Positions 3,473 through 43,768 of a stretch of 64,000 bases of DNA are shown one piece after another (the first letter of the stretch is position 1; every line of letters begins with the position of its first letter). The stretch lies in NCBI GenBank assembly GCA_025602905.1, contig JAHLKI010000049.1:1-64000 (forward strand), in the 5' to 3' direction. The notes below the pieces were generated by a model. It was given only the letters and a program-made list of their open reading frames with translations. It made no database searches and was not told the origin of the DNA. The position numbers and the translations under genes were made by a program. The stretch is from Phlyctochytrium arcticum (taxonomy: Eukaryota > Chytridiomycota > Chytridiomycetes > Chytridiales > Chytridiaceae).

Positions 3473-3630
3473 TTGAGCGGTTGGAGCGGTGAGCGTACCC
3501 TGATTTCCCACGCTCGGAGGACGCTCACGCTATAGATGAATGGATCGGGTATGCGATACACAAGGGGAAATGCGGCATTGGAAGATAAGTAATTTATGCA
3601 CATATTGTAATTTATGAAGGTACAGTACGA

Positions 3631-16041: not shown

Positions 16042-19000
16042 ATGACGGTAGCGGAGGGCGTATTGCAGAAACGAATGACTGCCTCCTACGAAGATACGTT
16101 TAGCGAGTTTGTGGACGCAGCCGAAACCGGCGGCGCTGAAATGGAAGAACTAGGAGGAGAGCAATCGGATATTTGGTCAGGTTTAGGTATGCTACCCGGT
16201 GTATAAGTTGCGCACATCCAGTCACTAATAGTAGATATTTCCTCACAGGAGATATAAACCGGGAGTCAAGGCTTACACCTACCCTGGATGAATCAACGCC
16301 AATGGCAGCTATTGCAACCCCTGAGATTCCGGCTACTTTGGCATGGACTTCCGAACACAGCTTACTCGGAGACATCGAAGGTGAGGAGCGGGAACAGGCA
16401 CCTAATTCTTTTATTTTACTAAATCTCATTTGGCATTGAATAGCGTGTACTCCAACGGATGAGTTCTCGCTAACTCCAGCGGGACGCATGGAGAGCGATC
16501 ATATCCTGGGAAGCGATAAGCAATCTGGGGGCGGGGATTCAGAGGACGATAGTGACCCCGGAGAGGACTCGATAAAGGACTCAAAGTCCACAGAAATGGC
16601 AGTCAGCGCTGATGCTATTCCGTCATCTGAAGGGCACACGGATGCCTCACAGACAGAACAGTCGTTGGGTGCTGGCAACGCGGACCATACGACAGCCAAA
16701 CCCGATTCTCCCTTCAGTCCTTCGACAACCAGTTCATCACATGTGGAACGTCGTATTACACGAGGTAAAACAAATGTAAACTACAAGGCGCTACTGGATG
16801 GGCCATCGATTGCACGCAAGCTTGTTCCACCCAAGAAGCCGTCCTTTAACGAGGATGGGGAGCGCGTGTATTGCACATGCCGCCAACCAGACACTGGAAA
16901 GTTTATGATCCAGTGCGACAATTGTGAAGAATGGTAAATTGACGAGAATATCACTTAAATTCTGCCTAATGGCTTCTAAACGAAATCTATAGGTTCCATG
17001 GCAAGTGTGTTGACTTGACAAAGAAAGTTGGACAACAATTAAGCACGTACCACTGCCCGCAGTGCCGGGAAATTCTGGGTCATACTAAAACCGCCGGTAA
17101 GTGTTGTATACTATTTTCTAGTTGTGCCATCCTATATTTTCCGGGATGCGAGCGTAATGCAATGCTATTATGTTTGCGTATTTCCGTAATCAATGATACA
17201 TTGCCAAACAATCTGGGCTGCCATCTTGTATCTCCTTGTATGAGTAGTAGTGGTCTAGCTGTCAATGTATCGTGGTCGGAACCGGGCCTAAGCCAAGTGG
17301 TTCCCACCTGCCTCGGTGATCATAGACGCTACTGAACGGCCTACAATTTGGGTTTCAGGCAACTTCTCAAATTGGAATGATTCACTTTCCCAAAGTTTCA
17401 ATATGTGATCCAAATGACATCTCGTAACTCAATCTCGTTCCTCACAGATTCACATCCAAAAGCCGAGAGCTCATCTATTAAAGAGTCGAGCAAGGCCGTT
17501 CAAAAGAGTCCCGTAGCCGTGAAGCGCGAAACGCCTGTCAAAGTTTCGAGGCCTACAAATCGAAAACCCATTGCTGTTGACGCGGTACGTTTCTATATCG
17601 AGAATGTCAGTTTGCTTGCTTCCATTATACAGAATACATATGAGCTGACACCTTCATTTCTTTTTGTTTCTACCAGTCGCCACAAGTCATCAACTCCAAG
17701 TGTATTCTTCAGGACTGTCCAAATCGGCCGATAGCATCAACACATTTTTGTTCGCAGCACTGTGCCCACAAGTATCTTACAATTTCCCGGGGGTGGCTAT
17801 GTGGGTCTGCCATTTGCCGGAATCCTCCAGCTCCTTCCGCCAGTTTCTGTTCTCGGGCGTGTGAAATCGATTTCGGCAAGGAGTTAGTGCAGATAGGGAA
17901 AATTGATAAATCTTCAGCTGCTGCTGCCGCTGAACTCATACCCACTCAAATTCTACCTGGCACTATCGGCTCGAGACCTATACAATCAGTGCCTTTGCCA
18001 CCAGCATGGACAAAGTCTCCGGTCAGACGCGCTGCCCGACGGAACTTTGAAGAGACGTTCGCAAACCTCTTTGCAGATGCGCAAGCGAATCCGGAACTTT
18101 ACGACGATCTGCTTGATGACAAAATCAACCTTGCGGATCCCAAAGCATACGTTGCTCAACTCGAAGAAGCATTGTTTGAGGCATACGCGACACCTGTGCG
18201 AGGTGATGCGTCAGGAACGTTGGAGTGTGGTCAAGCATACAAAGCCAAATTTAGATCCTTGCAATTCAATTTAAAAGATGCCAAAAATATGCGTCTGAAG
18301 CGACGGGTGTTGTGTGGAGACGTCTCTCCCCAAGAATTAGTTAGACTTCCCCCAGAAGATTTAGGTAATGACGATGTCAAAGCTGCCGCCGAGGAGGTGC
18401 GGCGCCGGTCCCTGCGAGACGCAGTACGAGTCAACAATGACGCTGGCAGTTACCTTAAAAAGACCCACAAAGGGGAAATTGAAGTTGTTAGGCCAGCCCG
18501 GATAGAGGTTAATGCAGCAACAGTGCATATGGAGCAACAACACCAAATAGCTAAGAATGTTGGCATTGCCACGCAGCGAAGGGAAGACGTCGTCCAAAGT
18601 GCCCATCCCTCCGAACATGCTTCCATTCCGGAAAACAACGATGCAGACGACAAATCCCCTACCATTGATGGGCCAGCAAAGCGTCCAATCACAGAGGATG
18701 AAGAGATGCCAGAATCAAAAAGATTGAAGGAAGAGGATGAAACATCGCCTTCCGAGCTGACAGGAGCCTTACAACCCAACGGATCTGAAACGAATGTGGA
18801 CGGTAATTCTCACGCAGTGGGCGACGAGATGACATCGCGACTTCAACCAGAGTCAGACAGCGAGCAGCCGCGGGAGGAGCTTGTTTTGGATGGAGATGCT
18901 GCCGGAGACAATTATGAATATGAAGCGGACAACATGGATGTTGATGCCAGTACGGCCGTGAACGAGGAGCCGGAAGCCATCGCCGTTGACTTGGACCTAT

Positions 19001-20295
19001 CCGTTTGGAAAGGCCGCGTTCACATGCCACAAGTTGGTAAATTCAGCGGCTCATGCAAGCAAGTATGCGGGCGTCCGATCGGCGACATGAAGGCATGGGA
19101 AGATATTCTCCCGCCAACCATTTCTATTGATGGACGGGTAGCAGCGAAGCATGTTGAGAAGTATATTCAAGAACAACGCAAGGGTGCAGGCAAGCAAGTT
19201 GTCGCCATTGAGTTTTATGCTGGCGAGGATACCATCCCGGAGGGAATGGACGCAGCGTTGGCCCGAGATGAAAAAATAGAGGACGAAACTGGATTTGCTG
19301 CTCTTATTGAATATTTCCGCTCGCGGCAGCGACTGGCCGTTGTTGGGCATCACTATGTGAGCATTAGAGACATGTATATCCTACCTCTCACCAAAGATGA
19401 GCCACTGCCCGCCTTTTTGACAGATTTGGAAGACTGTCGTATTCCGGACGCTCCGCGTCAGCGAGATACTCTGATTGGGTTGATTATCCTCTCGAGCGCA
19501 TTTGCGCGAAGCAGTTCAGAGCACGAACATAGTCCGACGCGAGACACTCGGGATAAAATGAAAGTACCAGTGCCAGGTTCTGAGCGTTCTGCGCAATCAT
19601 CTCCCGTCCCTACTCCTCCACCCGCCATCCCGAATCTTTCCATCTTTCGCAATTCAACTCCAGCCGGCAATACAAAGTTTGTGCCGACACCCAACCCGTT
19701 TCAGGTCTCGCCAGCTCAGCAACAGCAAACCAATCCCCGCGCGTCTCATCACCAACCCACTCACCGGCCGCTACCGCCGCAACAACCGAAACGCAGTCTG
19801 CTCGATACATTTGCTCCATTACCAGCCACGTCTTCCATCCCCACTTCCGCCGCTCCCCTTCTCCAACAACAATCGATGGACACAACAGCCATGCTTACCT
19901 CCCTCCTCTCCAATCCGCAAAACCTGGGTCTAGTCTCGTCTCTCTTTGCGCAGCTCACCCAACAACAGCAGCAACAACTACCAGGCGGAACAAACAGGAT
20001 CCCACCATTGTCGGGAACTGTGCCTGGTGTGACTGGAAGCACAGCCGCCATCCCTGCTTCATCCGTCAACACAAACACATTGCTGTCCTTGCTGGCCGGG
20101 GGTGCAGGTGTCCCAGGTCTGTCGGCTCCTCTTTCCTCGTCCCAATCGCAACACCCATCAAGTACCACCAGCTCCACTATCCCAGATTTATCAGCGTTGC
20201 TGAATTCCATGCAAACACTCGCACCTACATCGTCTGCATTGCCCGGTAGCACGAACCGCCAGGGAAAAGCATCAAGATGGGATAGTCGGTCTTAG
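16042..20295 (+). CDS. BYE1: Bye1-like PHD / TFIIS-M / SPOC transcription regulator
   Basis: Nuclear protein of the Bye1/PHF3/DIDO family, which binds RNA polymerase II and the histone H3 tail. After an acidic N-terminus comes a PHD finger split by an intron at about 16935 (YCTCRQPDTGKFMIQCDNCEEW, then FHGKCVDLTK and YHCPQC). Next is a paired Cys/His cluster (CILQDCPNR, FCSQHC, then WLCGSAICRNPP, FCSRAC). It is followed by a TFIIS-central-like domain (RRNFEETFANLFADAQANPE, LKDAKNMRLKRRVLCGDVSP) and a SPOC domain (VWKGRVHMPQVGKFSG to QRLAVVGHHYVSIRDMYILP). The tail is long and Gln/Pro/Ser-rich. The start ATG at 16042 opens exon 1; most downstream coding is one large exon from about 17680. Domain order matches Bye1, apart from the extra cysteine clusters. 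Confidence 0.85.
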
Positions 20296-23532: not shown

Positions 23533-25976
23533 TTAATTCCCATTAACTCCTCCTTTAGCCGTACACAAATGCGTATGATGCTGTCCCCCCTCCTTTTCCG
23601 AGCATACTTCCACTTCCTTGACCCACTCATCCTCCAATAACGCCTTCATGTTCATCCGTTTGGTAGGGTTGGGTTCGAGTAACCCGTACATGACGCGGCG
23701 CGGGCCGGGGGGAAGTTTATCCAACGGCCAGAATTTTTTTAGGTTGTCCAGGTAGTGTTTATACCGGGGGTCAGAGGTACAGGCTGCCTTCCAGGGGATA
23801 GAGTTGTAAATCATCACGTAGCTATTCAAAAAAAAAGGGGGTTAGGATTAAAGTGAAAAGGTGAGAAAGGGGATGGTGGACGTACTAGATGATCCCGATA
23901 CTCCATATATCGACCAATTCAGAATCATACTCTCTTGTTTCAAATTCTTCGGGTGCAATGTAGGGTCCAGATCCACAGAGTCCTTTGGCTTTGCGGGTAA
24001 GTGTACAGAAGGGTGTACGGAAAACTTCCGAGACGCCAAAATCCGTGATTTTAAGGATCCGACCGGGTCGATCTAATAAAAGGTTTTCGGGTTTAAGATC
24101 CCGGTGAGCGACACCCATGGAATGTAAGTACTCGACGCCCTGAACGAGTTGTTTGAAGTAGCAGTTGACTTCCGAAGAGTTTTTCAATGTTCCGCCGTGG
24201 ATACGACCAAATAGGTCGCCACCCGCACAGTACTCCATCACGACACACCAATGGCGTTTTTCGTCTTGGATCAAGTCAACGGTGCTCACGACGTTTTCGT
24301 GGTGAAGGGTAGACGAAATACAGAATTCGGCAATCAGTTTCTTGACGTATTCTTTTTGGGTTTCATTCTTGCGGCGTTTCCGGAATTCCTTGATGGCGAG
24401 TTTGGTCGCGCGGTTGTCGGCGGGGCAGCAGAGACGGACAACGGCGTTGGCGCCCCGGCCTAGGATTTGCTGTTTTTGGCCGTATTTCGACAAAGAGTTT
24501 TCCGAGAGGGAACGGGCCATGGAGGGTTTTTCGGAATCGGGGGAATGGGAGGTGGTTGATGAGGAGTTGGGGGTTAGATTGGGTGGGGTGATGGACGACG
24601 GGCCAGCCGCGGTGGAAGTTGAAGCAGTCACGACGGCATCACGGGGAATGTGAGGCGAGTAATGGCTTTCGGCCGCACGGCTCGCAGCTGCCGCTGCCGT
24701 CGTCTTTTTGTGCCGGGCACTCATAATCAAGTCTTTGAAGAGATTATGGGATGTCTGGTGATGCGTCGATGCCTCTTTGTGATGCGAGGACGAGGAGGCG
24801 GTCGAGGATGTTGCGCTGTCGGGGTCCGAGTCGCTGCTTTTCCCACTGGACTGTTCGTCAGAGCTATAGTCGGGGGATGAAGGATGAGCGGCGGCAGAGG
24901 GACTAGGCGGGCCACCACTACTGCTAGACTGGGGGGCCGAGGCAAAGGCCATGGTGGAGGGGGGAGGGGGAGGTGGGGGAGTAGGTTTAGAGCGACCGCC
25001 ATGCAACAAGTCGTAAAACAAGCTAGATTTAGTGGCGCGACGCTGGGGTTGGGCCGGGCGAACGAGTTCGGGCTCTGATTCCGAGCCAGATCCCTCGGTG
25101 TCAGACTGACCACCTTTGAACATGGAGGGTCCACGGGCGGGTTTGCCTCGAGAAATCAGACTGCCAGCTGGGTTTTTGACGAGAATGACTCCATTGCCGC
25201 TATGACCCCCTCCAAGGCCACCACCCGAATTGGCACCGCCCAAGGCAGAGGTACGATCTGAGGATGATCCACCGCCGCGACGATTAGAACCGTTCCCAGA
25301 AGAGTGTTCGGCAACGTCGGCGAGACGCATAGCTTCGGTCAACGAGTTTTTGCGGCGACGAGGGCGGCCAAAGAACCCGCCCTCCGAGTCAGAGTCCTCG
25401 GTTCCCGAGTGTTCGTCGGCGGATTCGGCTTCACTGCCGCTGCCATAGGAGCGGCGCGAGCGACCAAAGACGGGTCCACGTTCTTCGTCGCCAGAAGACT
25501 CTCCGGGATGGAAAATGCGGTACAAAATATTACGTTTAGGGGGTGCGGGGAATATAGCTGGTATTATGCTTTATTCGTTTTCTGTTAGTTTTGGGTGATT
25601 TCACTTTTAGGATAGGGAAAACTCACTCCAATTCACTACGGGAGCCGTCTTTGGATAGGTTGGGAACGATGGGAGGGCGTTTGTCATTGTGATGGTGGTG
25701 GTGGCTCTGACTGGCAGAGCTACTGGATATTGACGACGCCGAGACGGAGCGGGCGGTCGTAGTGGGAGGTTTTTGGGCGTGATGATTTGAGGTGGTTGCA
25801 GACTGTTGCTGTTGCTGTTCCTGCGACGAATTCTGCTGTGATGAAGTTTGTCGCTGCTGTTGCTGCTGCTGGGACTGTTGTTGTTGTTGTTGCTGTTGTT
25901 GCGACTGCTCCTGTTGGGGATGGCGGGGTTTTTCCGACAGACCCGGGGTCCAAATCTCTGTTGCAAATGTTGCCAT
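23533..25976 (-). CDS. HAL/SAT4-type (Npr1 family) serine/threonine kinase
   Basis: Fungus-specific kinase family (yeast Hal4/Sat4, Hal5, Npr1) that controls plasma-membrane transporters, notably K+ uptake. A long disordered N-terminus has a CAG/CAA-encoded poly-Gln tract (about 25800-25915) and His, Ser and Pro runs. The kinase domain follows: P-loop ILGRGANAVVRL, VAIK-type lysine in KLAIKEFRKRR, HRD loop VAHRDLKPENLLL, DFG in KITDFGVSEVF, and APE as YIAPEEF. SEVFRTPF and CGSGPYIAPE are typical of this family. The last exon continues from WSIGII into YYVMIYNSIPWKAAC across an intron at about 23825-23887. The junction after exon 1 (near 25625) is uncertain: the best donor by sequence and the best by phase differ. 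ATG at 25976. Confidence 0.9.
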
Positions 25977-28076
25977 ATTGCTAATTGTCGTTGGGGGTGT
26001 GTGTCCTTGTCTCTGGTTTGAGATGCTCCTGAGATGCTAATGGGGTGTCAGTTGGGTTGGTTGGCAAGTGTCATTTTCCATGTACTTGCCTTGCTGTTCA
26101 CCGCTGCAATCCTCTGTCTCTCTCTGTTGTTGTCCTCAGTACACAGAGTACCAAAGTCCTGCTGAATTATACTAAACTGTTCAAGTAACGTAAAGTCAAG
26201 GGAAAAAGTAAAAGAAAAAGAAAAACTCCAGGGCTTTGGGCCCTGCGCTTTTCCTTTTGCCTTGGCTCTCGCTTTCGCTGCTCTCTTTGTTCCCCGCCTT
26301 TGCCGGTTCCCCGCCCGGGCATAACCCTAGCCCTAGCTAGACTGGTCACGTGAGACAGCGGCAGCTGTCGGCATTCGATCCCCCTGGAACCTTCTGGAAC
26401 CCCCTGGAACCCCTGCACACTGTGGGCTCTGAGCCCAGAGTCCCTACACGCCTGGTGCGTGGCTCCAATAGCGTGTGGCTTTTTTGTGCTAAAAACTTGT
26501 GGGAGCTTATGTAAAATGACCTCTTGAACCCTAAGAACTTGAGATTCACCAGCTCGCGAGCTCGTGAGATCCTAAGATCACTGCCAGGCATTTCCAGACA
26601 ACTTGAGCAGCACATAACTTCTAGTCTATCAGTTCCAGACGCCCGCAGCGCCAGACACTATAGAGCAGCATATACCGCTCCCAGATATATCAACCCCAAA
26701 AGTCTGACCATACTCACACATATATATACATCGACTACACTCGTTACCAAAATGGGAGAGCACCGGAGAGCATGCATTTTGACATTCCAAATACTAGCAG
26801 AAACCGGTATAGAGAACGTCGGTTTGCCGCAAGTGAAGTTTTTCGAACAGATTTCATCATGTTAAGGAAGTCTGCGAGGAAAGGTGCATCATGGTAACGC
26901 TTCAACGCCTCCAAGTTTATCGGAGGTACCTCCCTCCCTTTAGTCCCTTACCTCCCTCCCTATATATCATAATGAAATTGGTACTGCCTGAGATTTGCCT
27001 GCCCCAGACGAAAAGAGTACCACTGTCATCTTCAAGATAGTGCGAATTCTCTTACGCAACATGAATGGTCCCGCCAACCTTACTTTTCCTGCCATAACGA
27101 CTATACTGTACTTACTGGATTGGTTCGTTGCCCGCATCTCCGCCCCAAAAAAATAAACTATGGTTATAATACAATACGGTACTACGGTACTCCTCTTTGA
27201 GAAAACTGACAGCAACATTCCGACGCGTAAGACCTTCTATTACCTGATAAAATAAATTGCTGCGAAAACTGACAGCACGCGTCACTTACCTCAGCACATT
27301 CCGACGCGTAAAACCTTCTATTACCTGAAATCTGTGCGAATGCGCGGATCCCACTGTCTTCACTTGTGGAGAGAACGAACACGCATGTACACGTACATAT
27401 GTTGAGGTCTCCCTCACGCTCCCTTCGGAATAATTTACGGTTTTTACCAATAAGAACAACCTCGATAACCGTTGCAATCCTGAGTTCACTTTACAACACG
27501 TCGGAATCTTTATTTGTTGCGCCGGATATCCCATTCGTTTTGACAACGTAGGTTGACAATGACGTTGCGAGTTCTTCAAAAACATAACTGATCTTTTTTG
27601 CAGGAGAATATTTCCGAACTCTGTCCCGCCCGCAATCATTTCGTTTCTCCGCAACACGGTCGTTGTCCTTGTCCGGTCGAAACCTTGAACACATTTGCCG
27701 ATAATCATCATTGTCGTTCGAAATTTTGCAGTTTCCTCTGAACACGTAGGTTAACGTAGCTTTTCCACGCTTACCGGATGGATCACTAACTTGTTTTTAA
27801 AGCATTTAGAGCACTCGTTCATAAAATTTGACGCCTTTCAGTCAACAATACCCCCGCTTCCTGCCAACTTTTGGCTGGCGCCCTTCCCAACGTCTTTGCA
27901 ACCTGAAGCTCATCGCGCCCGCCACCTCTCCGGAACTTATTATGTAAGTTTGTCTTGCATCCTACCAAATTATCCAATGATTGACCTCTCAATGGTTTAT
28001 TTATGCAGCTCGTCATTTGCTGCTGCTGCCCGACCATTATGCTCTGATTGCTCAAAGTCCTCCATCCGCATCGACC
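25977..28076. other. Kinase promoter and 5' region of the Fanzor-like gene
   Basis: Mostly noncoding. From 26.2 to 26.7 kb it is pyrimidine- and repeat-rich, with CTGGAACC-type short repeats near 26385-26410 and TACCTCCCTCCC repeated at about 26927-26962. A strong GT-AG pair (GTAAGT at 27944, TTATGCAG ending at 28008) lies just before the Fanzor-like gene. Since no upstream ATG is open into the downstream frame, I read it as a 5' UTR intron. A 141-codon minus-strand frame (27286-27711) has no recognisable content. Confidence 0.45.
27201..27328. repeat. Short direct repeat upstream of the Fanzor-like gene
   Basis: Two near-identical units are placed head to tail. GAAAACTGACAGCA, ACATTCCGACGCGTAA and ACCTTCTATTACCTGA occur at 27201-27247 and again at 27263-27328, the second copy with about 18 extra bases in the middle. 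This looks like a tandem duplication or part of an element's end. Confidence 0.8.
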
Positions 28077-31000
28077 ATGGTGACTGGTTATTACATCACT
28101 CGGCCAGTGGGACGACTGCGGGGTCTTTGTCAAGCCGGTTACCCCGGGGTTGAAGGACACCTACGCGCAGCGGTCGAAGATGTGGATACTGCGCTATTTG
28201 ATGCTTGGAATCTCGCTCATGTGCATTTCCAACGACAAGCCGGAGCATTTTTGACAGCTTGTACTGATGAAGCAGCAGGTATAGTGGTCATCTTATCCGG
28301 TCCATGAAAGGGCTCAAAAAGTAATTATCCTTTGTTTTACAGAAGTCATTGTTCCCGAGGGGTTGACCTTAGATGGCTGTGGGTCTAGCCAGACCTATTT
28401 TGAACACATGCTTCGAATCGCAGTGGACATTCCAACTCCCGGTACTCACCGCCACCCTGTATTTCCATCGCTTCGCACATCCCTAGACCACTTCTTACGC
28501 CCGGCGCAACATGCAAACTTTACCTGGCCAGATGATGAAGAAGAACCCAGAGCACCAGGCCCATACGATCAGCAGCTGTACGCGAGACCAGCGTATTCTC
28601 ACGTTCAGCATGGCCAGCTGTTTGCCATTGAAGCAAAGAAAATGAAGACAGCTTTTACCACTTATGTCGCACTGAATATAGAAGATCATATAAAGCAGAC
28701 GATCAAGCACTGGCTTGGGAAAAACGAAGATCTAGCGTTAAATGCTGACCAAAAAGCTAGGTACAAAGCTTTTGAAAGCAATTCTTGCCGCGGCACCAAA
28801 TTTAACATACAACTCTAGTCTCCAGGACACTGCTTTTGCTTCATCCGTTCTATTTGTGCAGCTTACTCGAGCACGGCACGGTTGAACATGCCCTCACACC
28901 AGGTAACCTAATTCTATTTGCTGGGCTCCCGGTGAACGCAGCTCAGCAAGGACAATATGTTCAGTTTCTAAAGTAAGTATTTTTGCGGCGTAAACCGCCA
29001 TCAAATGCGTACTTACTGCCTTTATTTATAGTCCTATCGTTCAACTCATTTCTTGGGCGATGAGGATGATTTTACTTGAAGTTGTAGATTTGCCAACCGC
29101 GGGTTTGGCGACTAATCTTGCAGAAGCACAAGCAGAGGTCCTAGCCAATAAGAACTGGAAATGGAAACGGGTTGTGTCCAGCAAGCACAGTCGCGCCCAC
29201 TATTTACTGCCCCTGTTAGAATGGCTGGCGCGTTACGAAGCGGAGAACCGCCCTAATGCCCTTTCACACGTTCCCCTATGTCCCGGCGCGACTTCCCGAG
29301 GCACTCGTTTCGTGCAATTCGACTACCGCGCATTGTGCGAGACTCTCGGTCGGCGTTCCAATCCCCCCATTATGATAACGGATCCAGTGGCAGCCTGTGT
29401 CCGGCATTTATCCAAAGATGGCCGAGACTTTCCGAACGATAATAAATCGCGATCGGACGTTTTCTTCCAAATATTCAATCGTGGAAAAGCTCGGTTTCTG
29501 ACACTCGATCATGAAGGGCAGACGTGCTTCGTCGCAATGGCCATCTCATCCCCATCAGGCGTCTGTCTTTGATTACCAACGGATATGAAGCCAAGTTGAC
29601 TTTTGAGGTGCTCGGACAGGGAGAACTGCGACAGCGTAAGTAGCCTGGAAAGATTTTTTTTGATTGTTCACTTCGGGTTTAACGGACCGTCTTTAGGAAG
29701 GATCCCCCTGATTACGGAACTCTCGGAGCCTCGTCACCCTGCTCATGCAGAGTTTCGGCAGGTCCAAGACCCAGACCAGAGTGGGGGAGGCCTCTTTGCC
29801 ATCAATCGCCGCCCAATCGCCCCTGCTGCACGGGTGCTAGGCCAGCCTCCGTGCCGACCAGTGATTGGCATTGATTTCGGCCAAAGATTCCAGGTTGTGG
29901 CAGTGTCACAAAATCTGGCCTCGATTGCAGAGGCGGCTGAAGTAAACTTGCGACGGCCCGATGCTGCCGAGGAGGAAGTCCGGGAGGCCCATCGACAATC
30001 GCGCAGACAGGCGATTACGCGTGTACGGGGTCGCCACTACAGAGAGAAGAGTCTGACCGCATGGTTTGAGCGGAAACATGCGTACCGCGTGGCAAATACA
30101 CAGGGGCTGCCAGGTCGGTTGTTTTGCGTGCTTTCTATGTCCATACTGGATGCTGAATTGCCCCCTGCTCACAACAGTACTCATTGATGAAGTACGCGGC
30201 AGGAAAGCAGAATTGAATGGGTTAGGGACGCGAAGCACGTTGGCCTACCTTCACACCGTCTACGGCAATCTAGACGAAATGCGATTGCATTTTAGGGGAG
30301 CGCTCTATACCCGTTGCTCTCTGACCCGAGGAACCGCCCGCCAGAGTGCCTTGACCACACTAGCCCGCTACATTATCGACCCGCGCTTTGTCAATGCGCA
30401 AGGGGTCGCGCTCGCCGAGCAAATGCAACTCACAGGCAAGAACAGGACACAGAACATGCACTTGACATGATTTTTAACAAATTGCAACGCACAGGCATGA
30501 TCAGCGCCATGCGTGATCGCAACACGCGGAGACGCCTGGCCAACCTGCAACCCGGAAACCCGCAAGGTAGAGTCAACTTTGAGGATCCCCACAGGCTGAT
30601 GTCACTGACTGACGGTGAGTTTAGCACTCCGACCCGCCCCGTTAATCGCCTGCGGCTGGGCCAATTTCCATTGGGCCAAAGGCCATGGTTCTGTCCCGCC
30701 AAAGAGCCTGGCCCGGGAGATGGCAGTCCAGGGGGCGACGGTGGCAATGATGAGCGAGAAAGGGAGCAGCGAGCGGGATTCGGCTCAGATGGGTCGCATG
30801 GAGGAGCGAACGGCCATGCGCCAACCTCTACCCATCCTGCTATTGACGGATGAGGTGCGTCTGCGGGTGCCACGCTGTTCCCAGCACCGCAAGCAACGGC
30901 TTCGTCGCAGTAATCTCGGTCATCGGCGCCGCCTTTACTGCACCCTTCCAGACGATAACAAGGTTCTCACTTCTGGCTGTCCCTCCAACCAACCTCCTCC

Positions 31001-31238
31001 ACCCAATCGGCCCGGTGTCGTCCATCTCAGGCTACGGCAGAGTCGCACTGCCAACGCCATTTTCCCTCCCGCCCAGCAGCAAGCACCCCATCGTGTCATT
31101 TTGGACAGCGATGTTAATGCCGCCAGCATTATGCGGTACCTCCTCTGGATGTACAGCCACTATCGCGGGGCCCGAGCACCTTGGAACGTTGCTGCTGGGT
31201 TTGCCTATCAGCCGCCGCCGTCACATTTATGGCATTAG
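28077..31238 (+). CDS. Fanzor-like (eukaryotic TnpB family) RuvC nuclease
   Basis: Candidate RNA-guided DNA endonuclease. Proposed exons are 28077-28278, 28343-28760, 28862-28972, 29032-29493, 29559-29635, 29697-30113, 30178-30389, 30446-30566 and 30625-31238. All junctions are GT-AG and phase-consistent, giving 877 aa. A helical N-terminal part (FTTYVALNIEDHIKQTIKHW) precedes the wedge-like barrel part ending RRLSLITNGYEAKLTFE. RuvC-I is VIGIDFGQRFQVVAVSQ (Asp483), followed by the helical STLAYLHTVYGNLDEMRLHF. The RuvC-II region reads ACGWANFHWAKGHGSVPPK with Gly684 where TnpB has Glu, and the displaced Fanzor glutamate is LLLTDE (Glu750). RuvC-III is ILDSDVNAASIMRYLLWMY (Asp836). The zinc ribbon between Glu750 and RuvC-III looks degenerate (CSQH, then HLRLRQS). 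The start ATG 28077 is the first in frame after a probable 5' UTR intron. The protein is longer than many Fanzors, and exon 2/3 and 7/8 borders are least sure. Confidence 0.8.
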
Positions 31239-32423
31239 GCGACTGTTCTGAATGGCACACTGAACGGTGTGCATCCATCAATATACAGAAATGGTAAGTT
31301 GCTCAATCTTTTACAAGTCACTTGTCGTTGCACGCACTAAACATCGTAACCCTCTCTCTCCCTGTCCGTCTCCCTGGTTGTCTCGATCTCTCTCTTCTCT
31401 CTCTCTCTTGCCTTCACTGCTTCACTGTAAAGACTGTAATCGTGATTATGTAATAATGGTTCGAATCTTTGCGAATATAGTAGTAGTCCTCCTCCCCGGA
31501 ACACAGGAACCACAGGAACCACAGGAACACACACTGCCGTTCATTCAGCCGTTCATACGAGTACTGTAGTTGAAAAGGTCCCCCGCCATAATCCTGCAAT
31601 GGCATATGCTGATTGCTCTGCCCGAATGAATATGTTGTTGCTCCGAACCATTGCTCATATTAACTCGATCTATTACTCGTAATCTATGCGATATGTCTTT
31701 TGTCTGTCTCGGGCTCTCCAAAGCAGAGTCTTATAATATATGCGCTCTGAGTGCACTGACTCTGGTGCGCCTGAACCCACTGGGCACTGCTGGGGCACTG
31801 GGCACTCGCTCCGACTCGCTCGCAGCCGCTCGCCGCCCCTCGGGAGAATCGACGGAGATGCCCGAGAGATGCAAAAGCAGAGAATCAGAGACCACGTGAC
31901 GCCTGACATAAGCAAGAACGCGTCCGCGAGAGCGCAGCTTGATATGATCAATTGAAAAAAACGCGGCGCGCGCGGCGGCCACGGAACAAACGGCGTCGTG
32001 GTGCGGCGTTGTTTGTGGCGGCGGCCGCTTTGTTGCGGTTTCGGGGCATTTGGAATTTGGTTTACGGGGGTTTCCATTTCCATTAGCGACAGTCTTTTCC
32101 ATTCGCGCAGGGCCCAGGAAAACATACGTTGCAGGCCAGCGTCAATCAACTTTGCCCAAAGTACATTCGCTTCGCAGCAACCCCGTTTCATTCCGCCCAA
32201 CAGCTTATTGCGTTTTTCATCACCTTCTTCACCTTCATTGCTTTCCACCTATAAGGACGTTGAGCGTTGACCTTGGTCCCGTATACTTGAACCCAACCTC
32301 CTACTCCATCCCTCGCCTCTCTCGAAACACTATCCTCCACTCCCCCCACAGCAACCAAAGCACAGAGTGCCGCCTCATTGATTTAACAGCTGCTGCAAGC
32401 ATCCCAAAAAAACAAAAAGCATC
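31239..32423. other. 3' flank of the Fanzor-like gene and Ste12 promoter/leader
   Basis: No coding gene supported. The first 350 bases hold a CT-rich microsatellite-like stretch (about 31350-31412) and three copies of CCACAGGAA-like sequence (about 31500-31530). In TnpB/Fanzor systems the guide RNA usually derives from the 3' end of the gene and its flank, so this is the place to look for one; the sequence itself does not prove it. Nearer Ste12 the region is CT-rich and probably leader. Confidence 0.4.
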
Positions 32424-34634
32424 ATGCCTTTGTCGTCTGCGGACGCTGCTGCTGCTGCTGCTGATGCTCCTTCTATTACGAGTAAGACTACTGCGGGTCC
32501 AGTAGTCGCTGCTGGAGCGAATGAACAACAACAGTACTATGCCCAGGAAACAAGTCTGGTCACCGCGACCCTCTCCGACATGGACCTCGCTCAACATCAC
32601 CAGCAACAGTTACCCCCTCCCCCACCACCACCATCACCCAACTCACAGTACCACCACCTTAACCATCAACACCACCATCAACAACACAACCACTCTAGGA
32701 CTGGCTCCTTTGGTGGCAGCAGCAATTTGACGGAAGGGCTGGCTTCCCTCCCCGTCGTGCATCCCCTTTCTCAACATTCCCAACAGCACCCACAACAACA
32801 ACAACAACAACAACCCGTCATGATGCTGGACATGCAGCAGCAGGCTGCTCCCCACCACCACCCACAAAACAACCAGAATAACCACCAACAAGTGGATACA
32901 TCACATTTGGACCAAGAATCAGGCGAAATCGTCGGAACAATAGACCAAAACGGCCAAAACGCTCATCTCCTCGACTCTCTCAAACTCTTTCTCGCCACTG
33001 CCCCCACCAACTGGGACCCCGACCAAACCGTCAAACGCTTCCCCTTACCCAACGGCGAATACATTTCCTGCGTCCTCTGGAACAATCTCTTTCACATTAC
33101 CGGAACTGATATCGTCCGCTCCCTCACTTACCGATTCCAGGGCTTTGGCCGCCCCGTCAAAAACGTCAAGAAATTCGAAGAGGGCGTCTTTTCCGACTTA
33201 CGGAATTTGAAACCCGGGATTGATGCGACACTCGAAGACCCCCGCTCTGAATTCCTCGAAATGCTCTATAAATCCAATTGCATTCGCACCCAGAAAAAGC
33301 AAAAAGTCTTTTACTGGTTTTCGGTGCCCCATGATCGCCTGTTTATGGATGCTCTTGAGCGGGACTTGAAACGGGAGGCTTTAGGTGTGGAACCGACTAC
33401 TGTGGCTACGAATCCAATGCCGTTGATTCCTACTCTCGAACTCGCGAAACAACAGTGTTTGCCTACCTTGCAATTTCCCAAATCCGAGGATCTGTTGGAA
33501 TCTTCCTCTTCTTCTTCACTGACTTTGGGACCCGCAGCACCACCACCACCACCTCAACAACAACAACAACACATGGCTGGACCATCATCAGAAGGAGGAG
33601 GACCAGGAGGACCTGTTGCGCTGGAAGAATGGATCCATGACTCGCCGGTCGGTCAACAGATTCATCAGCAACAACACCAACTCTACGCTCCTCAACCCCA
33701 ACAACCCCAACCCCATCCTTTAGCCCAATCCCAAGACTTTACCACCTACGATCCCAACCACCAACAACAACAACAAATCCCGTACCTGACCCACGCATCT
33801 CCACCCCTCCCCCACGCCTCTCCCTCCCTCTCCAGCGTCACCTCCGAAGACCCCTCAACCTTTCCCCCCCTCGACCCTGGACAACAACCCCCTTACCCCC
33901 TCTTCTCCCTCTTCGAAGGCTCCCCCAACTACAAACAACGTCGAAGGGCTCAATCCCTCTTTTCCATTTCCAAACCCCAACACACACCACCCCCCTACGG
34001 TCCCCGCCACGCTACCCCCGACCCCCCCGAAAAACGCAACTACACGTGTACATTCGACGGCTGTTCGCGCCGCTTCAAACGCTACGAGCACCTTCGCCGC
34101 CATGAACGGTGTCATACCGGTGAACGACCTTACGTCTGCCCCGTCGACGGATGTGCCAAGGGATTTAGCCGGTCCGATAATTTGGCGCAGCATATGCGGG
34201 TTCATTCTTCTTCTTTGGCCATGCAACCCCAACCCCAACAAGCACAACATCCTACTGCCATGATGAATAAACCCGACTTGAAATTATCTCATAATAGTAG
34301 TCCCATGATGGAATTCGCTGAACCGTTTCAAATCCCTCCTCAACCTTACTACCCACCCTACCATCAACCATCCCACCACACCCATTCCCTCTCTCACCCG
34401 TTCACCCCACCTTTCCTCCCCCACCACCACCAACACCACCAATCCCAGTCCCCCAACCACCAAAGATCCCACTCCCTCCCCTCCGTCTCCTATTTCACAT
34501 CCCAGCCGCAACAGTACATGGACTACAACCCCCAACAACAACAACAGCAGCAACAGCAGCAGCCGGCGTACCTGGTCCACGGGATGGTCCCTAATTCGGG
34601 GTATACCGAACAGGAGGGTGGATATGTACTCTAG
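32424..34634 (+). CDS. STE12: Ste12-like transcription factor with two C2H2 zinc fingers
   Basis: Sequence-specific activator at the end of mating/filamentation MAP-kinase pathways. This is the Ste12/SteA form with C2H2 fingers, found in most fungi but not in S. cerevisiae. A single intronless exon of 736 codons. The STE homeodomain-like region spans about residues 185-310 (LKLFLATAPTNWDPDQTVKR, LWNNLFHITGTDIVRSLTYR, FSDLRNLKPGIDATLEDPRS). Two C2H2 fingers lie at about 540-600 (CTFDGCSRRFKRYEHLRRH and CPVDGCAKGFSRSDNLAQH), joined by the linker TGERPY. Extensive Gln, His and Pro runs surround the domains. The ATG at 32424 is in good context after a CT-rich leader. Confidence 0.95.
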   Translation: MPLSSADAAAAAADAPSITSKTTAGPVVAAGANEQQQYYAQETSLVTATLSDMDLAQHHQQQLPPPPPPPSPNSQYHHLNHQHHHQQHNHSRTGSFGGSSNLTEGLASLPVVHPLSQHSQQHPQQQQQQQPVMMLDMQQQAAPHHHPQNNQNNHQQVDTSHLDQESGEIVGTIDQNGQNAHLLDSLKLFLATAPTNWDPDQTVKRFPLPNGEYISCVLWNNLFHITGTDIVRSLTYRFQGFGRPVKNVKKFEEGVFSDLRNLKPGIDATLEDPRSEFLEMLYKSNCIRTQKKQKVFYWFSVPHDRLFMDALERDLKREALGVEPTTVATNPMPLIPTLELAKQQCLPTLQFPKSEDLLESSSSSSLTLGPAAPPPPPQQQQQHMAGPSSEGGGPGGPVALEEWIHDSPVGQQIHQQQHQLYAPQPQQPQPHPLAQSQDFTTYDPNHQQQQQIPYLTHASPPLPHASPSLSSVTSEDPSTFPPLDPGQQPPYPLFSLFEGSPNYKQRRRAQSLFSISKPQHTPPPYGPRHATPDPPEKRNYTCTFDGCSRRFKRYEHLRRHERCHTGERPYVCPVDGCAKGFSRSDNLAQHMRVHSSSLAMQPQPQQAQHPTAMMNKPDLKLSHNSSPMMEFAEPFQIPPQPYYPPYHQPSHHTHSLSHPFTPPFLPHHHQHHQSQSPNHQRSHSLPSVSYFTSQPQQYMDYNPQQQQQQQQQQPAYLVHGMVPNSGYTEQEGGYVL

Positions 34635-38210: not shown

Positions 38211-39827
38211 TCACGCGATCGCGAATGGCCCCAGCGGTGGCAGGATTTTTCCAGAAGAAGTCGGTGGTCCTGCCCGGAACAGGCGATAGTGGTTGGGCTA
38301 ACTTTCGCAAGTGTCCGTCGGTCGGGATCAAGCGCTCCCAAAGATCTTCGACCGGGGATCGACAAGATGATTGTCGAGGTCCGGGTGGGAAGATCAGGCG
38401 AGGTAAATGGCGCGTTTTTCAGCTAGGTAAAAGAGCCTGCTTGGGTTCGTGAGGATAGAGTGTGTGGGTGATCTGGCCTTGGACATGTTGGTTGAGGTGT
38501 CGTATAGTTAACTGTCTCAAGATGGCACCTCCATCTCGGCAATTCCCAAGTGCTGTCAGTCTTTGGAGTAATAAATTGTTGGTCTCAGCATGAAGCCCCG
38601 TGAATTAAGCGGCGTGAAGCCCCTGTCTGAAATCTTGACAGCGTCAAGGATGAAACTTGAAGACTGGGTTTTTGATTCAACGATTCGACCTTCCTGTCAT
38701 ATTTCCTATAGTTGCCAATGGCACTTACTATGGTATGATCTCTGAGGAGTAATACTATCCGTATCCCCATGCTGAAGGAGTCTATGCATTTGTACTTGAT
38801 CCGAATTGGTGTACCAGCATATATGGGGGGAGAATTGTAACGCCGGATCTGAAATAGCAGTCTCCAACGCAAGACAGTGCTATTTCGTAAATTTGATGGT
38901 GGTGCCCGGTGAGCTGTCAAAGAAACCGGAGTATTCCGTGCAATTACTTTAGATATTAGATTGCAAACGACATCAGTTGGGGTTTCCGGCACTCCCACGG
39001 CGCAATCGCCTTGTCAAGTGTGATTACTCTTGTCGGGAGTCTTCTTTTACTTGAAAGATGCCTTTGATGGAGCAAGCAGCTCTTGATCCGCAAAAAGGAA
39101 TGAAACTACATATGTTCGATTTAACGAAAAATGGCTAAGGATATCAAAGAGTATCAGTACGAGACTTTGTACGAGACCAAAATTTCCCCAAATGGTTGCC
39201 GAGAATCCATCGGAATTCACCGGAGTGCACAAGGAACTTCTTGGTGTGGGTAAACGGACCCGGGCTTACCCGATACGGTATAATCATCAATGAGAAGTAG
39301 TTTTTCTAACTTTCTGGGTATAATACCGCCGATTCTTTCCTCACCATACTATTTTTACATTGCATTGAAGAGGGCAAAGCAGAGCTTCGCTACCCGCCAA
39401 TACACAATACATACATATTTGCCATAGGTACGGTAGCCCATAACAATTGAAGTCCAAAGGAAGAAAACACTTGACAATTGTTACCATATATATGGGTAGG
39501 TACGAAGACAGCTGAAAATGCAGACGAAAAGTTCCCGTACGTATGGGATAACAACCGAAATTTAAACAAAAAGATTTGCCGGGTTTGCGTTCCATATCCC
39601 CAGTGTGGATCTGTTGTCATTGTTGACAGTCCATTTACTGATTTAAAAGTAAATAACCATTTTATACCTCGGCTGCACACCCAGGCAGACCCCATCAAAC
39701 AAGGGATTTTGTTTATTCACAAGGACCCATAGAACGATGGCGGTGCAACAGTTGGAAAATCAGGTTCGACGGACTGATATCGCCACTCTTCTACAGCTCC
39801 TCATCAGCCTCGCTTTCGGCATTGATA
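38211..39827. other. Gene-poor stretch and copper ATPase promoter
   Basis: No gene supported. Short frames (up to 137 codons at 38585-38998, minus) carry no domain. An ATG at 39737 opens a 57-codon frame (MAVQQLENQ...) that overlaps the copper ATPase start in another frame and could act as an upstream ORF. Confidence 0.45.
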
Positions 39828-42800
39828 ATGGAATATTTTCGGAACTTGGTGTCTGGCAGATGGAAGTCGTCACTACAGAGGTTACAAAGTGGGCTTTCCA
39901 GCCATGATTTGGGTGGCCCGCTGACAGTCACAACCACACCCTCCCCATCCGGAGGAAAGCACCTCAAAAAATCGTTTCTGCCTCACTCGACCTCGCAACT
40001 TCCCATCCTCGCATCTCGTCCAATATTGTCTCCTGACGGTCTAGGTCAGATTCAGAGCGTCTTTAACTTGGAGGGGCTTACCTGCCACTCTTGCGTGAAT
40101 GCCGTTGAGACCATCGTTAAGGGTATCAAAGGTGTCGAGCAAGTTGTGGTCACACTTAAACCCAATCAACAGGCTATTGTAGTTCATGATGGTGGAGTGG
40201 TCAGTGTGCAAGGCGTGACGGAGGCAATTGAGAATGGGGGATTTGGAGTTACAAGCACGTCTTCTGAGAGATTTAATGCGTCGACCTCGCAGATTATAGG
40301 CGGACGTACTGGTTCCATGTCTGTTGCATCGAGAGAAAAGGGGGAGGCCAATTATCGCACAACCAATAGGAAGTCAGTTCGATACTCGCAATTCATCACT
40401 AGTGCGGATCAGTTTGTCACGCACAGCAAGCAGTTGACGTCCTTGGTTGCTTCCAAGCGCCGCACAACGTTTAGCATTCACGGAATGACTTGCGCCTCCT
40501 GCGTCGGCTCATTAGAAGCCAAACTCAAGACTCTACCTGGTGTGGAAACAAGCACAGTGGTGGTAACCCTTTTTCCCCAGCGCGCAGTCGTAACTCATGA
40601 TACAGCTCTGATTTCTACGGAGAAACTAGCTTCAACCATAGAGGATGCTGGTTACGACGTGTTGGCGACGGAATCACAATCATTTGTCGTGAGTGCCGTA
40701 CTTACAACGCGTCAGGACGATGGTATCGTCGAGATTCTGGCCGAACATACTGCGTCTACAGGACCGACTACGACCTATCTGACCATTACGGGCATGACAT
40801 GCGCGTCCTGCGTTGCGGCTATTGAGTCCACATTGCGGAAACATCCCGCGATTGAATCCGTTACCGTAAATCTCTTGACCCGACAAGGCAATATCCTTCA
40901 TGATCCTGTCCAACTGGGTCCTCGTGATCTTATTGCGCTAATTGAGCAGCTTGGTTTTGAAGCTTGCCTGGCATCGCAAAACTCAAAACTCTCTCTTGTT
41001 AATGCTCGCGATCAGCAAGAGCGCCGTAATTATTTGATCCAAATCCTGATTTGCGCTGTATTTGCCATTCCCACATTCTTGATTTCGATGATTTTCATGA
41101 TGGCGCTACCACCGGGTCATTGGCTAAGGGTCAAGATGATGGACGAGGTTCGGCCGGGACTAACCCTTAGCGGTCTCATCTTGGCAATTTTAGCGACACC
41201 AGTGCAATTTGGTTTGGGGTGGAGATTTTACAGGGGAGCTTGGAGAAGTTTGTGGTACGCAAAGTCAGCCAATGTGAGTATCTCCGTGTTGCTTCCTTTC
41301 CCTTTCATGGTTGACCACTAAGTCTTCTACGCATTTCAGATGGATGTACTGGTCGCATTAGGAACATCCGCAGCATACTTTTACTCAATGTACGACGTTA
41401 TTAATGCGGCTGCGACCAAAACAATGGGCCCAGACGGCGCATTCTTCGAGACAAGCATTCTTCTCATATTTTTCATATTGGTTGGCAAGTATTTGGAAGC
41501 TTATGCCAAAGGTATGTTCAGACAGCCACGGACTAGCATTTTGCAGTAGGCCCAAGTGATGAGCTGAACAATACATTCGTGCAGGCAAGACTTCTGATGC
41601 CATAACAAAACTGATGGACTTGACCCCTCCAATGGCAGTCCTGATCACAACTGAGAAGGGGGAAGGGGGTGTTGATAAGGAGGTGGAAAGAGAGATTGAG
41701 ATAGGACTTGTGCAAGGTAAGGTTGACAAATGAGTTAACTGAGTGGCCTCTGAAAACTAATATCCACGGGGGGATGATAGTGGGAGACGTTTTAAAAGTT
41801 GTCCCCGGGGGTCGCATTCCCTGCGACGGCATTATCCTGACAGGATCGTCATATGTGGACGAATCCATGTTGACGGGAGAACCACTTCCCGTTCCAAAGC
41901 ATCCCGAATCTGCGGTCATGGGCGGAACAGTCAATACCACTTCTCCCCTTGTCATACAAGCCACCAAAGTGGGAGCCGACACGGCATTATCCCGCATCGT
42001 TAAACTGGTTGAGGACGCGCAAACATCCCGTGCCCCTATCCAGGCCGTTGCGGACACCATCTCGCGCTACTTCGTTCCTTCCGTGGTGTTACTTAGTGTA
42101 ATTAACTTTGTGATATGGATGGCATTAGCTTATGCAAATGTCCTGCCTGAAGAGTGGACGAATGGTGACAGGACTGCATTTGCATTAGACTTTGCAATTT
42201 CAGTGCTTGTTATTGCATGCCCCTGCTCGTTGGGATTAGCTACCCCAACAGCTGTCATGGTGGGAACAGGAGGTGGGTCGGTCTTTTGTGAGGATCTAAT
42301 TAGTTCCTACTAACCACCGCTTCCCTTAGTCGGAGCAAAGTATGGCATACTCATCAAAGGCGGTGGGGCAGCTTTGGAGATGGCTCATTCTGTGTGTGCT
42401 ATCGCGTTCGACAAAACTGGTACCCTCACTCAAGGCTTTCCCATTGTCAAGGACAATGAAATCTACCTTCCCTCTGGTTCAAATACTAATGTATACCATC
42501 AGAAGGGTGATCCCGCTCGACATGTACTTAGTGAGATGGACTTTTGGGTTCTGCTGCATGCAATCGAGTCAGCAAGTGATCACCCGCTCGCCAAGGCTGT
42601 CGCGAAGCATGCTGTGGATCGGCAAAGTGAATGTAGAAAGCGGGGCATCTTACCTTCTACAACATATGAAGTTATCGACTTATCGGAAATACCTGGTAAA
42701 GGTCTGATAGCAGTTGTGGAAGCACAGCCGCAAAAAGATGAAGAAAAAGGGCGTTTCGCGGTTTATGTTGGATCTTATCGCTGGATGACAGAAAATGGAT

Positions 42801-43768
42801 GCGGTGTTCCCGAGACTTCCAATTTTGATATGGAGCAAACTGTCAACCGATGGAGCGGGGAGGGAAAGTCATGTGTATATCTAGGTATCGGTCCCGCCCC
42901 CTTGGCAGAACAGCAGCAACCGACCAGCAATGACCTCGCACCCCCCCTGCCACACAGTCGCCGGATTTCCAACGACTGGTCATCCCCTAGCCGTCCTGTC
43001 TCGCGTCTGTTCGGCCAAAGAAAGGCGTCCCTTGCTGCCGCCGCGACAGTTCCCGCACGGGCACCTCAAGCGGGTATATTAGGTATCCTCGCTCTGTCGG
43101 ATCCTTTACGCCCTGAGGCTACAGTCGTCGTATCTGAATTAGCTCGGCGGGGCATTGTCGTTTGGATGATTACAGGAGATACGCGCCGTACTGCACATGC
43201 TATTGCCAAGCTGGTGGGTATTCCACCGTCGCATGTGCTCAGTGAGGTGCTGCCAGAGGAGAAAGCTGAGAAAATACGATGGTTGCAAAATACAGTTCGA
43301 AGCAAAAAACGAAGTGGGAGAGTGGCCATGACGGGAGATGGTATCAATGATTCGATTGCTCTGGCGCAAGCGGATGTTGGGTAAGTAGAACCTACAGCTC
43401 TTGCTGAACATTTGTCGCGTCCAGCTTCAGTAAATTGATTTAATGCCTTGAACATCATTAGAATTGCTATTGGCACTGGCTCCGACATCGCCCTAGAATC
43501 AGCCCAAGTCATACTCATGCGCTCCAATCTTCTGGATATTTTGACTCTCTTTACCCTGTCCCGCGCAACATTTCGGCGAATAAAACTCAACTTCGTGTGG
43601 GCTTTTGGATATAACGTTGTTGGATTGCCAATCGCGGCAGGCTTGCTGTATCCAGCTGGACGGGTAGGGCTGGTCCCCTGGATGGCAGGTATGGCTATGG
43701 CGGCCAGTAGTGTTTGTGTAGTATTAAGCAGTCTCGCCTTGAAACTGTTTAAGCCTCCAGTTGTGTAG
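39828..43768 (+). CDS. CCC2: Copper-transporting P1B-type ATPase (Ccc2/ATP7 family)
   Basis: Pumps Cu(I) into the late secretory pathway to load cuproenzymes such as multicopper oxidases. Three N-terminal HMA domains carry LTCHSC, MTCASC and MTCASC metal sites (about residues 85, 225 and 325). The core follows: actuator loop [11 protein letters not shown], intramembrane CPC in [13 protein letters not shown], phosphorylation motif [12 protein letters not shown]-domain HP motif [10 protein letters not shown], and hinge [18 protein letters not shown]. Introns occur near 41274-41340, 41512-41584, 41717-41780, 42273-42330 and 43382-43461. The hinge has Ile where most P1B pumps have Pro (GDGINDSPAL). 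The N-domain has a long Ser/Arg-rich insert (about 42900-43060). ATG at 39828; the in-frame TTG two codons earlier is not needed. Confidence 0.95.

Follow-up and report, generated by a model that had tools for sequence, protein, structure and literature searches.

The best described relatives of the locus examined here are the Fanzor and TnpB proteins. In PMC10711439, the Fanzor fingerprint includes DPG at RuvC-I and a glutamate six residues before the zinc finger, the so-called alternative Glu being defined by its position in the RuvC fold. A motif for TnpB and Fanzor together, given in PMC3627910, consists of D-X(125-275)-[TS][TS], a C4 zinc finger two residues further on, and RD at RuvC-III. 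For SpuFz1, the Fanzor1 protein of Spizellomyces punctatus (PDB 8gkh), PMC11423790 gives a triad of D383, E541, and D606, with the glutamate between strand 5 and the TNB domain. Note that, by our own count along the SpuFz1 chain, E541 is the glutamate of DEYKTS. According to PMC10432273, the right-end scaffold of the SpuFz1 RNA is 75 nt long, and is extended by 14-15 nt of flanking DNA.

We analysed one stretch of 64,000 nucleotides (contig JAHLKI010000049.1, positions 1 to 64,000; hereafter, the window). A preliminary description, made from the letters alone, had placed an intact Fanzor-like nuclease gene at 28077-31238 and guessed at a chytrid-type genome. The guess was correct; the host is Phlyctochytrium arcticum. 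As for the gene, we consider it likely that the locus is a mobile element copy in decay, and that the nuclease gene it carries is related to Fanzor1 but highly divergent. The literature on Fanzor, chytrids, and Phlyctochytrium arcticum (supplements aside) yielded no account of such a family, and the word Phlyctochytrium is absent from the main text of PMC10432273 and PMC10711439.

A repeated mobile element and its boundaries

The P. arcticum genome (31.5 Mb in 91 contigs) was searched for copies of the family. With the RuvC-I exon as the query, at least 31 matches, in at least 20 loci, were counted by hand; both counts are lower bounds. The window locus thus belongs to a repeated mobile element with 20 or more related loci in this genome. 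This element spans about 26445-31482, and comprises a left arm, the gene at 28077-31238, and a right arm, after which the DNA is unique to each copy. Hence, the feature first reported was too small. The parts outside the gene are listed below, with loci denoted by L numbers and contigs by C numbers.

26445-28076, + strand: left arm and leader, starting TACACGCC; by eye, L049 and L050 have the same start
27944-28008, + strand: probable leader intron, GTAAGT..CAG, with GT and AG aligned in the window, L029, L034, L035, and L036
31239-31482, + strand: right arm, candidate guide-RNA region, ending ATAGTA
31483-31502, + strand: unique flank that, from its position, would supply the guide if the element is Fanzor-like

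Compared by eye with L049 and L050, the element start at 26445 has two small gaps. Against L035, the left arm is 86-100% identical in nine of ten 150-base blocks (26551 to 28050), and 79% identical in the tenth. At the other boundary, seven right ends (window, L034, L035, L036, L037, L051 for the C43 copy, and solo L052) lead into seven different flanks. The sequence AATAGTA is also found at the aligned right end of L040, L033, and L038. By eye, only TAC/GTA is inverted at the element tips, and the three left ends compared have no common motif that would indicate a target-site duplication or TAM. The one arm ORF scanned had no Pfam match.

Copies resemble the window to different extents. Most 150-base blocks of the C43 copy (L029) are 99-100% identical to the window. 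This copy also has indels of its own, and about 7 kb separate it from its right end, the junctions being marked by an 8-bp duplication. Each of L034 to L038 has at least one arm, left or right, in common with the window. Two of these, L036 and L037, are about 80 kb apart on C1; both keep the right end, while left-arm similarity begins only at about 26686 and about 27992, respectively. As one gene type, L035, L036, and L037 are 99% identical, and their flanks differ, which indicates recent movement. A lone left arm, L053 (G000:C41:155000-156000), matches window positions 26559-27006 at 84% and parallels the solo right end L052. In the RuvC-I exon search, C41 had no family gene match.

Ordinary-looking host genes flank the element in the window.

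17644-20292: host gene with TFIIS central and SPOC domains
23888-25570: host gene for a protein kinase
32382-34631: host gene for an STE-like C2H2 factor
39657-41318: host gene with three HMA domains
42314-43381: host gene for a HAD hydrolase

The window gene, its damage, and its intact sisters

Both gene boundaries given previously are present (ATG at 28077 and stop at 31236-31238), as are the letters of GIDFG, TDE, DSDVNAAS, and RGARAPW, in that order. These strings are spread across frames, with probable GT-AG introns between them. Alignment to L036 suggests the following exons.

28077-28278, + strand: putative exon 1, aligned to L036 exon 1, with donor GTATAG 4 bases off the aligned place
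28343-28760, + strand: putative exon 2, with a frame-breaking 5-nt deletion at about 28757
28819-28972, + strand: putative exon 3
29032-29635, + strand: putative exon 4, with a frame-breaking 1-nt deletion at about 29530
29697-30113, + strand: putative exon 5, bearing RuvC-I
30178-30566, + strand: putative exon 6, with a 59-nt insertion near 30414 that is common to the C43 copy
30625-31238, + strand: putative last exon, with the likely catalytic Glu, Cys/His ligands, RuvC-III, and stop

In both sister loci, L036 and L037, eight exons separated by GT-AG introns encode 955 aa, and no stop interrupts the frame. Measured against intact L036, the window gene is damaged, rather than intact as originally supposed, with the 5-nt and 1-nt deletions and the 59-nt insertion in its exons. 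The 5 bases missing from exon 2 are present in the C43 copy. Three remaining length differences from L036 are, in our reading, not damage: 2 nt in exon 1 would reflect a shifted donor, the 37+8 pair of exon 5 would keep the frame, and 7 nt ending exon 7 would go with intron 7 of L036, which the window copy lacks. Judged from these lesions, the window copy probably makes no full-length enzyme. Genes in L029, L034, and L035 are each broken in ways other than that of the window. In L040, the putative exon 2 has two in-frame stops; its relative L041 is without these stops, but runs off the contig end.

Conserved residues were located using alignment A1, which has five family rows; the window row holds an intronic stretch in place of exon 3. 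Alignments A2 and A3 were left out because window fragments are misplaced there. Invariant across A1 is GIDFGQ.FQ.VAV. Also conserved are the block C.WANF.WA.G..SVP.KSLAR..AV.G.TV.M..EKG, four Cys/His positions, and then D.D.N with its tail. In the window, the key positions are these.

29873-29875, + strand: RuvC-I Asp codon (GIDFG), from A1 and an hhalign block at 3.3e-4
30756-30758, + strand: likely catalytic Glu codon (MMSEKG), in five of five A1 rows and aligned with EYNTS of Fanzor1
30852-30854, + strand: Glu codon of TDE, in two of five A1 rows and not conserved
30876-30980, + strand: four conserved Cys/His (codons 30876, 30885, 30939, and 30978), in five of five A1 rows, a possible zinc site
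31110-31112, + strand: RuvC-III Asp codon (second Asp of DSDVN), in an hhalign block at 1.4e-5

The triad glutamate had been assigned to TDE. Here, the A1 rows read TIP, TTP, TTE, TDE, and TND, so that only two of the five have Glu. Instead, the family glutamate sits in MMSEKG, and is conserved in every A1 row. By exact pattern, M..EKG occurs at 12 of the 20 loci; the other eight gave no match. RuvC-I could be read at 17 of the 20 loci (16 by pattern and L034 by eye), giving 15 DFG, one DLG, one NFG, and no DPG, with three loci unmatched. For RuvC-III, DRD is present in nine of the ten loci matched, the window has DSD, and ten of the 20 gave no match. The distance from Glu to the first Cys is 40 residues in the window (codons 30756 and 30876) and 48 in L040. 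The intact sister proteins keep a predicted RuvC-type triad, consisting of Asp in GIDFG, Glu in MMSEKG, and Asp in DRDIN. The Cys/His cluster might bind a metal, possibly zinc.

Could the locus at 28077-31238 still be an intact, unannotated, and possibly active Fanzor gene, with a D-TDE-D triad and introns in place of lesions? The start, stop, and motif letters are all there, and assembly errors can produce small indels. However, three differences change the frame, and those of 5 nt and 59 nt are too large for a base-calling slip. Furthermore, the 59-nt insertion is common to the C43 copy, and TDE is not conserved. We regard such a gene as highly improbable. The statement that all three acidic residues are kept, making activity possible, is likewise not supported, as it placed Glu at a non-conserved position in a copy with a broken frame. 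Our preferred reading is a decayed copy in a family with intact members.

The genes nonetheless carry a record of constraint. Over 900 codons, the window and L036 have dS 1.88, dN 0.268, and dN/dS 0.14. Together with the repeat matches, this ratio indicates that the motif letters are no chance pattern. For L034 and L036, 947 codons give dS 0.62 and dN/dS 0.27. In the young group, dN/dS is 0.55 (L037 versus L036) and 0.86 (L035 versus L036), on very few changes. We conclude that the long-term record of the family is one of purifying selection (dN/dS 0.14-0.27).

Homology of the RuvC half to Fanzor1

Library searches used single sequences and the A1 rows. The TnpB/Fanzor profile match anticipated in the preliminary description did not appear: nothing rose above curated Pfam or NCBIfam cut-offs, and nothing was significant in PADLOC, PHROGs, or PDB. 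The P. arcticum genome has 15 PF07282 matches, with none in the window and none at the 20 family loci. Pfam RRXRR matched the RuvC-I exon below its 25-bit cut-off (E 0.0083, 16.5 bits), and no A1 row had a Pfam HNH match. Other weak candidates were rejected as well, among them Pfam DUF3323, with a sub-threshold match only, and FabG-type reductases, the sole PDB matches to the A1 profile (best E 0.21); PADLOC gave no hit. A database of 5.8 billion proteins yielded two hypothetical proteins of the same species (E no higher than 1), out of 7,995 candidates scored. With the window model alone as the query, there was no relative among about 8,000 scored candidates. Combined pattern and tblastn searches gave 66 pattern matches in 84,980 prokaryote genomes, and 61 in 2.9 million viral contigs; no relative was found in either.

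In the database gene models P0001 and P0002, some of the Glu block is left out or misread, which makes annotation of the family unreliable. AlphaFold2, run on P0001 with three sequences only, returned a mean pLDDT of 32; the prediction failed because there are too few relatives.

Other TnpB/Fanzor-type sequences occur in this genome. L006 and L007 (both G000:C8) contain near-identical TnpB-type frames, of 583 aa in L007, that are possibly Fanzor2. In L048 (G000:C2:1676000-1685900), ORF 2683-4326 is a 547-aa frame. By eye, its start resembles Copia reverse transcriptase/RNase H, and it ends in a TnpB/Fanzor Cys cluster and RuvC-III (PF07282, 2.1e-17). This reads like a fusion or a nested insertion. 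Finally, ORF 964-1761 of L004 (G000:C2:593041-596202) has both DPG and EYNTS, and represents a fragment of another gene, of canonical Fanzor1 type.

Through the L004 ORF, we gathered a canonical chytrid Fanzor1 set of five proteins (P0003-P0007; alignment A4), which matches SpuFz1 at 6e-10. Blocks of the family profile were then compared with Fanzor1 using hhalign. Note that these blocks were cut by hand, around motifs already expected. Three matched, in collinear order: RuvC-I at 3.3e-4, the Glu block at 7.7e-4, and RuvC-III with its tail at 1.4e-5. For each block, none of 200 column shuffles reached the observed score (0/60 each in a separate run). The Glu block is 38% identical to P0003 over 45 columns, with 43-45 aligned residues. 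Here, the M..EKG glutamate is aligned to EYNTS in Fanzor1, and EYNTS in turn to DEYKTS in SpuFz1. The uncut comparison gave 0.00099, at 22% probability, and leaves the two glutamates unpaired in its alignment. Allowing alternative alignments gave 0.0015 and 0.0046, left the Glu block at no better than 0.14, and added a non-collinear match at 0.19. The half of the protein before RuvC-I did not match the Fanzor1 profile (0.12). Since three collinear blocks match, with 0/200 shuffles each, we conclude that the family is a remote Fanzor relative. Hence, the kinship first proposed is supported by comparing the family with Fanzor1, profile to profile, and not by direct library searches.

Logically, RuvC motifs might also converge. 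The gene could then encode another RNase H-like nuclease or transposase, for example of IscB type or of an unknown family, that is Fanzor-like in these motifs only. The sub-threshold RRXRR hint, the lack of any library match to TnpB/Fanzor, and DFG in place of DPG all point this way. Conversely, the matches to Fanzor1 come from three independent blocks in the right order and extend into the tail that follows RuvC-III, and none was equalled by shuffling (0/200 each). In addition, a Cys cluster preceding DRD.N is the TnpB/Fanzor order. Convergence is therefore unlikely, and kinship with Fanzor1 is the favoured reading.

Kinship and class membership are separate matters. The RuvC half is homologous to Fanzor1 by three collinear hhalign blocks, the uncut comparison being weak. 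Two features of the fingerprint in PMC10711439 are absent: the family lacks both DPG and a glutamate six residues before a zinc finger. For the alternative Glu, the observation is the alignment of the M..EKG glutamate to EYNTS of Fanzor1. Of the motif in PMC3627910, D-X(125-275)-[TS][TS] and RD at RuvC-III are present. Thus, L040 has 242 residues between D566 and T809 (counted on A1), and [TS][TS] is TS, TT, or SS in the loci matched. The C4 zinc finger of that motif is not found two residues on; Cys, His, Cys, and Cys lie far downstream instead. The RRXRR and HNH combination of IscB is also lacking, with RRXRR below cut-off on one exon and no HNH. Because the defining fingerprint features are absent, we do not file the family as Fanzor proper. 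We class it as a Fanzor1-related variant whose mode of action is probably that of a Fanzor. Surveys based on profiles, or on DPG and the alternative Glu, would miss such a family, so eukaryotic RNA-guided nucleases may exceed the variety so far counted. The two intact sister genes, L036 and L037, make the family directly testable.

Arms, candidate RNA, and comparison with known systems

Near-identical arms surround diverged genes. When the window is compared with L036, 38.4% of 365 intron sites differ, against 9.3% of 659 in the left arm and 2.2% of 231 in the right arm. Equivalent values for L034 and L036 are 22.1% of 435, 2.6% of 656, and 6.1% of 230. The window and L035 reach 97-100% identity in the blocks between 26551 and 27300, but mostly 60-73% in their genes. 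High identity extends slightly beyond the ATG and then falls. With 2-9% divergence in arms, against 22-38% in introns, arms and genes probably have separate histories. The simplest reading is that arms have been exchanged, or converted, among copies.

Alternatively, selection on an RNA scaffold, promoter, or transposition sites might keep the arms alike. Consistent with this, copies with about 42-44% protein identity retain both the hairpin after the stop and the terminal ATAGTA. However, across some 656-659 sites of left arm and leader, divergence is 2.6-9.3%, compared to 22-38% in introns of the same copies, and some 150-base arm blocks of the window and L035 are 97-100% identical. Selection over that much non-coding DNA would be unusual. 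We consider selection the doubtful alternative, and exchange between copies the better account. A bolder idea, which we offer tentatively, is that the family is a deep, unrecognised branch of eukaryotic RNA-guided nucleases, with TnpB-like DFG, Fanzor-type Glu, and displaced Cys/His. In such a branch, arms would be repeatedly homogenised, perhaps via repair of breaks made by the nuclease itself, while genes diverge. A single genome in which old, diverged genes sit between near-identical arms offers a route to studying end exchange.

The right arm contains one candidate RNA structure.

31255-31272, + strand: 6-bp hairpin directly 3' of the stop, in which 34 of 34 two-sided cells pair

One C-G pair is G-C in L040 and L038, with both sides changed; L033 is gapped at two pairs. 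The hairpin is not decisive, since 47 of 500 shuffles were as good and 359 of 500 reached one both-sided change. Of six right arms, none gave a better fold than its shuffles (z between -0.6 and +0.9), and Rfam had no match in the window. By analogy with SpuFz1, an intact sister protein may bind a transcript of the right arm. The guide would come from the flank next to that arm, which varies from copy to copy; for the window, this is the DNA after 31482. The guided protein might then cut matching DNA, and cutting could help the element to stay or spread.

How, then, does the family compare with known systems? Fanzor2 belongs to the same superfamily but, according to PMC3627910, sits in IS607-type elements. 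Prokaryotic TnpB (IS200/IS605 and IS607) has the same D-hydrophobic-G at RuvC-I, as described in PMC10711439. Unlike TnpB, the family has a eukaryotic gene with introns, and in the profile alignment its Glu falls at the alternative, Fanzor, position. Fanzor1 (SpuFz1, P0003-P0007, and L004) differs in several respects. The family protein is about 955 aa, from eight exons, with DFG for DPG, ligands C, H, C, and C set 40-48 residues past Glu, and an N-terminal half in which no similarity was detected. According to PMC10432273, the inverted repeats of SpuFz1 elements are 30 nt long, whereas no terminal inverted repeats were visible, by eye, at the ends of this element. Otherwise, the family follows Fanzor1 in its succession of features: RuvC-I Asp comes first, then Glu at the strand before [TS][TS], then the Cys cluster, and finally RuvC-III Asp with the tail. 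As with Fanzor1, the element is repeated, its right end is conserved and the flank beyond is unique, and a chytrid has several copies, many of them broken.
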